64,000 nucleotides of DNA, taken from assembly GCF_013344475.1 (NCBI RefSeq), contig NZ_JABUOU010000006.1, forward strand, positions 186,001 through 250,000, in the 5' to 3' direction. Source of the stretch: Martelella limonii (GTDB lineage Bacteria > Pseudomonadota > Alphaproteobacteria > Rhizobiales > Rhizobiaceae). Below the pieces are notes generated by a model. The model was not told where the DNA came from. It searched no databases and saw nothing but the letters and a program-made list of their open reading frames with translations. Both the position numbers and the translations under genes were made by a program. Of this stretch, positions 32,597-35,789 are shown piece after piece; within the stretch, counting starts at the first letter, position 1, and each line of letters opens with the position of its first letter.

Positions 32597-32601
32597 TATC
32601 C

Positions 32602-32617
32602 GGACGCACTTGCGTCC
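32602..32617. terminator. Short hairpin between convergent genes
   Basis: GGACGC and GCGTCC (6 bp) flank a 4-base loop in the 30-base gap between the phosphatase and the Slam-like gene. It could mark the 3' end of both. Confidence 0.35.
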
Positions 32618-32626
32618 ACCACGCCG

Positions 32627-33955
32627 TCAGAACTCCTTGGTGATGAACAGCGAAATCGTGCTCTTGTTGTACTCGTAGAGCTCGACATTCGAGAAGTTCT
32701 GCGAATAGGCATATTCGAGCCGCGGCGCGAAACCCTTGGCCGCGAGCGTGCGGAAGGTGGCGCCGACCTCGACATCGATCCGCCGGTCGAGACGCGGCTT
32801 GGTCATCAGCGGAAAATCGCCGACATAATCGCGCAGCGTGCCCGACACGGCGATATCCGTGAGAATTCCGCCCGACCATTCCCGGGCATATTTGGCATTC
32901 ACATTGTAGCCGTCATAGGAGTTGATGTCGTTTTCGGCATGGACATGATTGTAGCCGCCGCCGAAACGGATGCTGCTGGCTGCCGTCAGCGCATAGCGGT
33001 GATTGAGGCTGAAGCCCGCCTCATAGCCGTCAAAGGCGTCGATCTCGTCATAATCGAGCAGCTGATAGGACACGCTTGCCGAGGTGACGCCGAACGGGCC
33101 GAAGGAACGGCGCACGGAAAACACCGGGCCATAGCCGGTGCGGTAGGGCTCGTTGCCGATGAGCACGCGCTCGGCGGCAATGCCGCCGCTGAAGATCCAC
33201 GGATCCATGCGCCAGGACAATTGGGAGAAACCGCCGAACTGGGTCTGGTTGTACTGGGTTTCCCTGTAGGCAAGACCGGTTACCGAGCCGCCGAAGGTCA
33301 GCGACAGGTCGTCGACGAGTTCAAATGTGTAGGTACCGTTCGCGCCGTAATTCAGACCGACGCCGCTTTCGGCCTTTTCGCCGGGCGCAAGCGCCACGCC
33401 GCCGACATGAACCAGATCCTCGTCGGTCGCATCGGAAATGTTCGAGCTCGGCGCAATCGCCACATAGCCGCCCAGCGTCCAGGGCCGGTCGAGGTTCACC
33501 CGGTCGATGAAATCCTCATAGAAGGAGCGGAGCGATTCGCTTGGCGCGGTGTCGGCCAGAAGCGAGAAATGATAGATCGCCGCCTTTTTCTCTCCCATGA
33601 GCGACAGCGTGTGGGCAAGTTCCTGGCGCACGCGCGTCAGATCGGGCTTCTGGGTGAGGATTTCACGCATGATGGCGGCCGCCTGCGTCAGCTTCCCCTG
33701 GCGCTTCAGGATCAGCGCATAGGTAAACTGCTGCGAGATCACCGACATCTCGGGATCGCTGGTGAGATGGGCCGAGAGCGCCATCGCCTTGTCGTATTGT
33801 CCCGATTCGATCAGCATCTTGATCTCGGGAAAGGGATTGGCCGCATGCGCCTGACCAGCGCCAAGCCCAGCACAAATCACAGCGTAAAACACAGCGAAAA
33901 AAGCGACGTCAGCCGCCAGTTTCGACCAACAGGAGAACAAACGCGCGATCTGCAT
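32627..33955 (-). CDS. Slam-like outer-membrane protein (surface lipoprotein assembly modifier)
   Basis: 442 residues. A signal peptide ('MQIARLFSCWSKLAADVAFF...GAGQAHA') is followed by a TPR-like helical region (about residues 30-150: 'IESGQYDKAMALSAHL', 'ALILKRQGKLTQAAAIMREI', 'LAHTLSLMGEKKAAIYHFSL'). The rest is beta-strand rich with alternating aromatic residues and ends 'SLFITKEF', the terminal Phe of outer-membrane barrels. TPR plus a C-terminal barrel is the Slam architecture, which moves lipoproteins or hemophores across the outer membrane. The gene just upstream encodes a TbpB-like lipoprotein, the expected client. Start ATG 33955 chosen over 33970 for the signal peptide. Confidence 0.85.
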   Translation of the reverse strand: MQIARLFSCWSKLAADVAFFAVFYAVICAGLGAGQAHAANPFPEIKMLIESGQYDKAMALSAHLTSDPEMSVISQQFTYALILKRQGKLTQAAAIMREILTQKPDLTRVRQELAHTLSLMGEKKAAIYHFSLLADTAPSESLRSFYEDFIDRVNLDRPWTLGGYVAIAPSSNISDATDEDLVHVGGVALAPGEKAESGVGLNYGANGTYTFELVDDLSLTFGGSVTGLAYRETQYNQTQFGGFSQLSWRMDPWIFSGGIAAERVLIGNEPYRTGYGPVFSVRRSFGPFGVTSASVSYQLLDYDEIDAFDGYEAGFSLNHRYALTAASSIRFGGGYNHVHAENDINSYDGYNVNAKYAREWSGGILTDIAVSGTLRDYVGDFPLMTKPRLDRRIDVEVGATFRTLAAKGFAPRLEYAYSQNFSNVELYEYNKSTISLFITKEF

Positions 33956-34045
33956 GCGATTACCAGTCACTCATTACATTTTCGGCCGGGCAGCACCCGG
34001 CATTGGCAATCACGGGCCGGCGGCCGGCCCGTGATAACGCGTTCT

Positions 34046-34858
34046 TCATCGGTCGGCAATGAATGTACCAACGGCGCCGGATCCTGTCAGATCGCCTGCA
34101 CCATTCAGCAGATAGGTACCCGCCATGCCGGCCGCCGCCGGGCCGTAAAACCCGCCTTCAACCCCGGAAGCACCCTGATTGATCAAACCATAATCATTGG
34201 CGATCGCAATCGAATTGGGGTTGGAGTTGAATTCCGAGCCCTGGATCGTGGCATCGAAGGTAATGTCGCCCATATCGCTCTGCATCGCGCCGGCGAGCTG
34301 GCCGGTCCCGAAGTTCACGTTCGCCTGGAAGCCGCCCTCGATATAGTCGAGCGTGGATGGCGGGAAGGGCAGCGAATAGTCGGTGACCGCTGCGCCGCCG
34401 AGATGGTTGCCGCGATAAACGGCCGTGCCGGTCAAGGGCATCTGGGAAGCGGGCGTCATGCCGTTGGTCGAGCGCACCGCCGTGAAGGTCAGGTCATCCC
34501 CACCCGGCTCCACCTCGATCAGCGCGACAACGGGCCCTTCCTTGATCGCCGGATTGTTGAAATAGCCAAGCTGCAGATAGGCGTCGGCGTCGTCGCTGAC
34601 AAAGCCGCCGGAGCCATCGGCATAGAAATTCGCCGATTGGCCGGCATCCGGCCCTTCCGTCATCACGACGGTAACCGTATCATCGCCATTGACGCTGATA
34701 TTGGCGGCGGCGCCGCCAGAGCCGGTGACCTGCGCCGTGCGCATGTTGACGTCCCCAAAATAGCCAACGGCATTGGTCGAAATCACATCATTGCTGTCAC
34801 TGCCACAGCCGGCAACGACTGCGGCCGCGCCAAGCACGGCCACGCTCAAATACTTCAT
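34046..34858 (-). CDS. TbpB-like beta-barrel lipoprotein, probable Slam client
   Basis: 270 residues. The N-terminus 'MKYLSVAVLGAAAVVAGCGS' is a lipoprotein signal peptide with lipobox VAGC. The C-terminal third resembles the small barrel of transferrin-binding protein B and factor-H-binding protein: 'VNFGTGQLAGAM', 'ITFDATIQGSEF', then 'GVEGGFYGPAAAGMAGTY' and the final 'GSGAVGTFIADR'. Residues 25-160 are another beta-rich region of unknown ligand. It precedes the Slam-like gene by 90 bases on the same strand, so it is probably exposed at the cell surface by that protein. No TonB-dependent receptor is adjacent. Confidence 0.78.
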   Translation of the reverse strand: MKYLSVAVLGAAAVVAGCGSDSNDVISTNAVGYFGDVNMRTAQVTGSGGAAANISVNGDDTVTVVMTEGPDAGQSANFYADGSGGFVSDDADAYLQLGYFNNPAIKEGPVVALIEVEPGGDDLTFTAVRSTNGMTPASQMPLTGTAVYRGNHLGGAAVTDYSLPFPPSTLDYIEGGFQANVNFGTGQLAGAMQSDMGDITFDATIQGSEFNSNPNSIAIANDYGLINQGASGVEGGFYGPAAAGMAGTYLLNGAGDLTGSGAVGTFIADR

Positions 34859-34940
34859 CGTCCCCACTCCCCCTTGCCGAAAAATTAACAAGTAGTTAAC
34901 TGTTGCAACGGCAGCGGATCGTGTCAACGGGATCGAAAGT

Positions 34941-35036: not shown

Positions 35037-35789
35037 ATGACGACCCAGACTCAATTGCCGCTTTTTTACAAGAAACCCGAGGTCCTGCGATTTGAAGACC
35101 ACAAGGGAATGGGGCTTGCGAAAGAGCGCGACTTTTCGTTCACGGCCGAGGCGACCGCCATTCCCCTTTCCGTCAGCGAATTCATGCCGGCCATCCGTCA
35201 CTATCCGATCGTGTTTGTCGGCGAAAAGGATCCGTCCCCGGTCGCGATCGTCGGCTTGAAGCAGGGGCACAATCTCATGCTTGAAGAGAACGGCGGCTGG
35301 GCGGCGCAGACCTATGTGCCGGCCTATATTCGCCGTTATCCCTTCATTCTGGTGCAGTCGCAGGACCAGGACACGCGCTATCTGGCCTATGACAGCGGCA
35401 GCGACATGGTAAAACCGCTCGAAGAGGCCCCCGATGCCGCGCCGATCTTCAACGAGGACGGGACCGCGAGCAAGGTGGTCGAGCCGATGCTCAATCTCTG
35501 CGAGGCCTATCACCAGCACCGGGCGCAGGACACGGCGTTCCTGAAGGCCGTTGCCGAAGCAGACCTGCTGGTCGCCCGCCATGTCGACATGGATTTCCCC
35601 GACAAGTCGCGCTACCGCCTGGATGGCTTCCGCGTGATCGACATCGAGCGCTATCGCGCGCTGTCGGCCAAGACGCTGAAGCACTGGACGGAAAAGGGCT
35701 GGGCAGACGCGATTGCGCTCCACCTTGCCTCCGCCCAGAACTGGGGTCTGCTGATGGAGCGCAACCAGCGCTTTCTCAAAAGCGCCTGA
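35037..35789 (+). CDS. SapC family protein
   Basis: 250 residues from ATG 35037, with a TAGGAGA Shine-Dalgarno at 35021-35027. The pattern 'FMPAIRHYPIVFVGEKDPSPVAIVGL', 'GWAAQTYVPAYIRRYPFIL' (in part) and 'FRVIDIERYRALS' is that of the SapC family, named after an S-layer locus gene of Campylobacter. No signal peptide or membrane helix is visible. In proteobacteria SapC genes often sit near surface or TonB-related genes; the molecular role is not known. It is divergent from the TbpB-like/Slam pair. Confidence 0.82.
   Translation: MTTQTQLPLFYKKPEVLRFEDHKGMGLAKERDFSFTAEATAIPLSVSEFMPAIRHYPIVFVGEKDPSPVAIVGLKQGHNLMLEENGGWAAQTYVPAYIRRYPFILVQSQDQDTRYLAYDSGSDMVKPLEEAPDAAPIFNEDGTASKVVEPMLNLCEAYHQHRAQDTAFLKAVAEADLLVARHVDMDFPDKSRYRLDGFRVIDIERYRALSAKTLKHWTEKGWADAIALHLASAQNWGLLMERNQRFLKSA

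Follow-up and report, generated by a model that had tools for sequence, protein, structure and literature searches.

Layout of the locus

The window analysed here is a 64,000-nucleotide stretch of the Martelella limonii genome (contig NZ_JABUOU010000006.1, positions 186,001 to 250,000), and it holds, on its minus strand, a two-gene pair in which the gene for a lipoprotein stands 5' of the gene for an outer-membrane protein of the Slam type, with 90 bp between the two (Table 1). The initial annotation had placed a Slam-like protein directly downstream of a lipoprotein with a TbpB-type barrel, at the same positions and on the same strand, and both genes are indeed found there in that order. A GTG at 33970 is a possible alternative start of the Slam gene. 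The eight window neighbours that were scanned include arabinose genes, a metallophosphatase, a SapC-family gene and a short-chain dehydrogenase. In the corresponding pair of Martelella mediterranea strain IOP_24, the lipoprotein is 68% and the Slam protein 86% identical to that of the window.

Table 1. Features of the gene pair and its immediate surroundings, in window coordinates
Feature	Position	Strand	Basis
Surface-lipoprotein (putative T11SS cargo) gene, 270 aa, first of the pair	34046..34858	-	PF01298, slam_lipo NF041636, lipobox
Signal peptide ending in lipobox V-A-G-C (Cys18)	34805..34858	-	Read from translation
N-terminal region, residues 19-139, acidic, no His; handle- or pedestal-like	34442..34804	-	Whole-protein profile, composition
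C-terminal TbpB_B_D barrel, residues 140-260, GGFYG...AGTY...GTF end	34079..34441	-	PF01298, alignment
Slam / T11SS outer-membrane protein gene, 442 aa, second of the pair	32627..33955	-	PF04575, C-terminal Phe
Predicted periplasmic TPR stretch, residues 75-128	33572..33733	-	TPR_Slam, TPR_19
Predicted Slam beta-barrel, residues 159-442	32630..33481	-	PF04575
Likely -35 box TTGACA of the pair's promoter	34922..34927	-	GTTGACA in upstream alignment
Conserved block ending in GTTAACTACTTGTTAA, probable -10/operator region	34885..34909	-	Upstream alignment of 8 loci
Hairpin between cargo and Slam genes	34010..34034	-	Centroid fold of 33950-34050
Terminator-like stem-loop just 3' of Slam, 7 pairs, 5 of them G-C	32601..32618	-	Scan
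Divergent SapC-family gene	35037..35789	+	PF07277 (194.6 bits), synteny

The Slam protein and its candidate cargo

The downstream protein scores 99 bits with the SlipAM family (PF04575; cut-off 22, E 4.6e-28), from residue 159 to residue 442 and along the whole profile (positions 1-288 of 288). Nearer the N terminus, TPR_Slam (PF24575) reaches 29.9 bits at residues 75-128, below its cut-off of 35.2, and TPR_19 reaches 26.8 bits at residues 85-137, above its cut-off of 25; it is through TPR_19 that the N-terminal periplasmic TPR region by which a Slam is recognized is found. The upstream protein matches TbpB_B_D (PF01298) with 49.4 bits (cut-off 26) over residues 140-260, covering positions 1-121 of the 126 in the profile, and scores 16 bits with FHBP_C (below the cut-off of 28.1) and 68.2 bits with the NCBIfam model slam_lipo (NF041636; below the curated cut-off of 80). 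Neither PF04575 nor PF01298 has a match in any of 14 control genomes. The two profiles named for this pair by the initial annotation, Slam and the TbpB barrel, are thus both matched above cut-off.

The lipobox of the cargo, VVAGC with Cys18, was identified by eye in the translation, and its Cys is aligned in the 19 Martelella rows of a 28-sequence alignment. The mature protein has a computed pI of 4.05, a single His (in the barrel), no Trp, and no Cys other than that of the lipobox. AlphaFold models made from two-sequence alignments have mean pLDDT values of 34.7 for the cargo and 36.5 for Slam. A phage search with the cargo gave no match.

A cargo profile was built iteratively, starting from the window and M. 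mediterranea proteins. It gave 38 matches, of which the 28 that start near the first position of the profile were aligned and the 10 partial ones left out. These 28 sequences can be aligned along their length, the N-terminal region included, and at E <= 0.01, with the window cargo counted, 23 of them match TbpB_B_D and 27 match slam_lipo. Against the PDB, the profile finds 61 distinct sequences at E <= 1 (best E 1.5e-20); the 60 matches shown are LbpB, TbpB, GNA2132, haemophilin or haemophore, fHbp and similar lipoproteins, the exception being a nitrophorin (E 0.11). Most of these matches cover the barrel, and several reach into the region before it: the TbpB chain 3ve1_A is covered at profile positions 23-260 and fHbp chains at 69-249. 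A separate profile of the N-terminal region, from 23 of the 28 aligned sequences, gives nitrophorin-4 at a marginal E of 0.0027 and then intimin at 0.074, neither of them convincing. Thus, the earlier remark that the first 135 residues match nothing recognizable stands for that region taken alone; it does not stand for the family, in which the region is alignable and is covered by the whole-protein profile in some TbpB and fHbp chains. Since the whole protein finds matches ahead of the barrel and the N terminus alone finds marginal ones, we consider a handle or pedestal likely, though short of proven.

Candidate transcription signals

Upstream of the cargo gene, the 9 orthologous pairs except L056 were compared; all 8 share an aligned GTTGACA, and the block that follows it reads GTTAACTACTTGTTAA in 4 loci and GTTTACAAGTTCTTAA in the other 4. 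A scan for consensus promoters did not list the TTGACA promoter of the pair. Between the two genes, the fold of 33950-34050 (101 bases) has a z of -2.5, equalled by 2 of 200 shuffles, and the hairpin in it may possibly stabilize the mRNA. The terminator-like stem-loop is found 9-26 bp past the stop codon of Slam. Shuffled versions of the scanned region contain 2.6 such sites (sd 1.8) and the real one 6, so that any one of them may be there by chance. We infer that the pair would use this promoter and this terminator.

Linkage and co-occurrence in the genus and the family

Ten of the 13 Martelella genomes contain PF04575 genes, 14 in all, of which 9 are orthologues of the window gene and 5 belong to a second type that is 43-44% identical to it. 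A cargo homologue lies directly upstream in all 14 of these loci, one of them partial (L015). The second type (L004 and L012-L015) occurs in 5 of the 13 genomes, 4 of which also hold the window type. In L015, the open frame at 377-979 covers only the barrel part of the cargo and the gene may be broken; transposase-like ORFs, judged by eye, lie downstream of its Slam gene.

The same arrangement extends to the family. Among 41 fetched loci from genus and family, 32 have cargo directly upstream of Slam, and of the 17 wider family loci 16 have cargo. One of these 17 (L078) has cargo and gives no tblastn match with the window Slam, while PF04575 does match there. The 9 loci without cargo by profile comprise three that lie near contig ends (L027, L033 and L034), four that have weaker SlipAM matches and other neighbours (L036, L038, L040 and L042), and two in which an upstream ORF is present and outside the reach of the profile (L032 and L039). 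In L036, L038 and L040, the SlipAM proteins adjoin a FecR-like gene (by eye), and these proteins perhaps belong to a different TPR-barrel system.

In a sample of 297 genomes of the family, PF04575 is present in 41 and TbpB_B_D above its cut-off in 21. Every one of these 21 is among the 41 that have a Slam (Fisher 3e-21, a value that ignores the relatedness of the genomes). Two genomes with TbpB_B_D matches below the cut-off and no Slam match (G046 and G109) are excluded from this count; with them included, the figure is 21 of 23 (Fisher 7e-19). Conversely, a TbpB_B_D protein over the cut-off is lacking from 20 of the 41 genomes with a Slam. In sum, profile matches, conserved linkage and co-occurrence across genomes uphold the original reading of a Slam-like outer-membrane protein paired with a TbpB-barrel lipoprotein, and they support the view that the pair is a two-gene Slam, or type 11 secretion system (T11SS), module with putative surface display.

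A second candidate cargo at a separate site

The genome of the window (G000) has one Slam and two TbpB_B_D proteins. The second of these, an orphan, is encoded elsewhere in the genome (L043:7868-8845, contig C3) between a sugar-kinase gene and ahcY, both named from their translations; it has 325 aa, a TbpB_B_D score of 51.8 bits, a lipobox recognized by eye and no His, and it is 29% identical to the linked cargo. The kinase is present in 13/13 Martelella genomes, with ahcY next to it or next but one in 9; the orphan cargo lies between them in 6 of these 9 and is absent from 3. All 6 genomes that have it also have a Slam, and the syntenic genomes without it are two that have a Slam (G012 and G004) and one that does not (G005). 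A dependence of the orphan cargo on Slam at the level of the genus is not significant (6/10 versus 0/3, Fisher 0.19). In the family sample, G036, G136, G258, G234 and G247 contain unlinked TbpB_B_D genes as well; all of these genomes have a Slam and some are drafts. In L056 (G007), the Slam pair itself is about 2 kb away from the sugar kinase next to which other species have the orphan cargo, which hints at a possible historical link between the two sites.

How fast do these genes change? Between the window and eight relatives, dN is 0.20-0.43 for the linked cargo and 0.09-0.18 for Slam; against three of these relatives, it is 0.03 for araA and 0.23 for the neighbouring phosphatase, with the cargo at 0.20-0.23. 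The linked cargo is therefore not the only fast-changing gene at this locus. Furthermore, four close pairs give the linked cargo a dN/dS of 0.08-0.11, which indicates constraint, and with a value of 0.26 for the orphan cargo in its closest pair, positive selection on either cargo is unsupported. At the orphan site, 7 of 8 pairs differ at 71-85% of synonymous sites in the cargo (a figure inflated by alignment error at 40-50% identity), at 35-66% in the kinase and at 21-42% in ahcY, whereas the eighth pair (L045-L046) is reversed, with 3% in the cargo against 13% and 15% in the flanks. This pattern suggests an exchange of alleles at the orphan slot between fixed flanks.

A single Slam may serve both the linked and the orphan cargo. 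We speculate further, and tentatively, that this is an environmental use of a T11SS for antigen-like or adhesin swapping, in which one constant translocon handles cargo in cis and in trans, alleles of the trans cargo are exchanged between species at the kinase-ahcY slot, and the surface protein changes, all without Skp or an iron partner.

SapC and Skp as possible partners

The SapC-family gene adjoins 8 of the 9 orthologous Slam pairs in the genus and was found in none of the 17 wider family loci, within flanks of a few kb. SapC is unlikely to be a functional partner: G005 keeps SapC and the dehydrogenase with neither Slam nor cargo (L097), and in G002 and G007 the SapC gene (71% and 62% identical) lies away from the Slam pair. 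On these grounds, SapC is probably a positional neighbour only. For the SapC homologues in the Slam-less genomes G001 and G011, identity falls to about 50%; these could be the paralogue and were therefore not counted against a partnership.

For Skp, there is no PF03938 match at E <= 0.001 in the genome of the window, and 6 of 14 controls do match, Caulobacter included. In the same genome, lpxD follows bamA directly, with no gene between (L112, contig C1; bamA called from POTRA matches, lpxD from reading the translation). Based on this adjacency and on the lack of an OmpH/Skp match, the genome may lack Skp, and a divergent Skp is a possibility.

Alternative explanations

The alternative that survives best, although we judge it improbable, is a module of the haemophore or metal-acquisition type, which would hand haem or a metal to a distant TonB receptor, as proposed for haemophilin/HrpC. 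Besides adhesins, the proven cargo of T11SS cluster 1 includes haemophores and metal-binding proteins (PMC12282271, PMC8406197). Consistent with such a role, the cargo profile matches haemophilin chains (for example, 8gm3_A at E 5.3e-10), and TonB receptors are present in 13/13 Martelella genomes. It is their distance that speaks against a handover. The initial annotation had noted no TonB receptor nearby, and as far as could be seen it was right: none was seen near Slam in the 10 Slam-bearing Martelella genomes, the nearest receptor being at least 199 kb away or on another contig. In the five genomes with both on one contig (G002, G004, G006, G010 and G012), the closest approach is 199 kb (G012); in the other five (G000, G003, G007, G008 and G009), the receptors are on other contigs and the distance from Slam to a contig end is 21 kb or more, so that in these drafts a receptor could lie past the end, at 21 kb in the closest case. 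For the genome of the window, three TonB receptors were found, all on contigs other than that of Slam; about 32 kb separate Slam from the closer end of its own contig.

Composition argues in the same direction, with the one His of the mature cargo in the barrel, none in the N-terminal region and none in the second cargo. The N-terminal match to nitrophorin-4, a haem lipocalin, might be held to favour haem binding; however, it is a marginal match to one protein family, probably by chance, and the N-terminal region of the window protein has no His, so we rejected it as a sign of haem binding. Taken together, the remote TonB receptors and this composition of the mature cargo, which also lacks Trp and any Cys beyond that of the lipobox, disfavour a role in haem or iron uptake.

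It is far less probable that the lipoprotein stays in the periplasm and that the DUF560 protein moves some other cargo or none, as has been suggested for some marine T11SS proteins of cluster 3. In that cluster, the genes seldom adjoin barrel cargo and often adjoin DUF1194 genes (PMC12282271); here, barrel cargo lies upstream of Slam in 14/14 Martelella loci and in 16/17 wider family loci, and a search of the genome of the window for DUF1194 (PF06707) gave no match.

PgaA and BcsC also consist of a TPR region and a barrel. The idea that the DUF560 protein is a PgaA-type exporter of polysaccharide can nonetheless be set aside almost entirely, since against this shared architecture and a BcsC match in the TPR region at a weak E of 0.061 stand the SlipAM match over 288/288 positions at 99 bits, the linked Slam-type cargo, and the lack of a polysaccharide synthase among the eight window neighbours scanned.

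Proposed mechanism

Our preferred interpretation, to which we assign a probability of roughly 85%, is a two-gene type 11 (Slam) module whose putatively surface-bound cargo most likely acts as an adhesin or other ligand-binding protein rather than as a co-receptor for haem or transferrin. In this model, the cargo gene and then the Slam gene would be transcribed as one mRNA, from the TTGACA promoter near 34925 to the stem-loop near 32610. The cargo would be lipidated at Cys18 and pass to the outer membrane by the Lol route, which delivers lipoproteins to that membrane. Kept unfolded, it would be threaded through the Slam barrel, with its own C-terminal 8-strand barrel serving as the address that Slam recognizes. 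Outside the cell, the acidic handle or pedestal region and the barrel would fold and bind a ligand. The data show the identities of the two genes, their domain boundaries, their linkage and co-occurrence, and no TonB receptor seen close by; from these we infer surface display, recognition through the barrel and an adhesive role, the last by elimination only. Several findings count against this reading: the slam_lipo and TPR_Slam scores under their cut-offs, the undetected Skp, the 9 of 41 loci in which the profile gave no cargo, and the 20 Slam-bearing family genomes without TbpB_B_D above its threshold.

A compact pair with two candidate cargo proteins and no iron partner seen, in a genus that has cultured strains, would make the ligands of environmental Slam cargo testable. 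By the same token, the undetected Skp would make the requirement of Slam translocation for Skp testable.

Comparison with known systems

Modules of this kind are already known from the reports of Hooda and Grossman, from the Slam1 study, and from the annotation of plasmids. Hooda 2017 reported Slams from every clade of Proteobacteria, also in free-living species, with predicted cargo that has an 8-strand barrel (PMC5449769); a Slam pair beyond Neisseria is not unusual. Public plasmid records already carry the name "surface lipoprotein assembly modifier" for such genes (for example, NZ_CP025810.1), in Sulfitobacter, Sagittula, Ponticoccus, Shinella, Novosphingobium and others; the best 25 of 51 plasmid matches are 21-26% identical to the window Slam, and the best among those listed, at 26%, is from Sulfitobacter. 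The window Slam also matches 25 Klebsiella plasmid records. In the literature, no paper was found that joins Martelella with a surface lipoprotein, and the main texts of PMC12282271, PMC8406197 and PMC5449769 contain neither "Martelella" nor "Rhizobi"/"Rhizob", though their supplements may name such genomes. The pair is mostly ordinary; its points of interest are the fast-diverging second cargo slot, the undetected Skp and the fact that no iron partner was seen close by.

T11SS proteins have been sorted into network clusters by Grossman in 2021 (PMC8406197) and in 2025 (PMC12282271). Like Martelella, the members of marine cluster 3 (Rhodobacteraceae/Roseobacteraceae) are Alphaproteobacteria, and some of their loci hold a lipoprotein of 282-375 aa with a C-terminal barrel (PMC12282271); linkage to cargo is rare there and the rule here, and the DUF1194 genes of that cluster are absent from the genome of the window. 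The experimentally verified T11SS proteins all belong to cluster 1 (PMC12282271). Its cargo (haemophilin/HrpC, NilC and Pls; Grossman 2021, 2022 and 2025) shares with ours a C-terminal 8-strand barrel, a variable N terminus and a gene near that of the outer-membrane protein. In contrast to the Martelella pair, cluster 1 is mostly animal associated, and TonB, metal and haem genes are found together with it (PMC8406197, PMC12282271).

The comparison with Neisseria has both sides. Slam1 moves unfolded TbpB into proteoliposomes in vitro and is thus a translocon, and Skp is a holdase required for functional display of TbpB in Neisseria (PMC9090332, eLife 2022). The Martelella pair differs in its single barrel, in having no TonB receptor seen near it and no Skp detected, and in the position of its cargo gene directly upstream of Slam. 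It nevertheless has in common with Slam1 and Slam2 (cargo TbpB, LbpB, fHbp and HpuA) an outer-membrane protein made of TPR and SlipAM parts and a cargo with a lipobox and TbpB_B_D, and the Martelella cargo profile matches chains of TbpB, LbpB and fHbp themselves.
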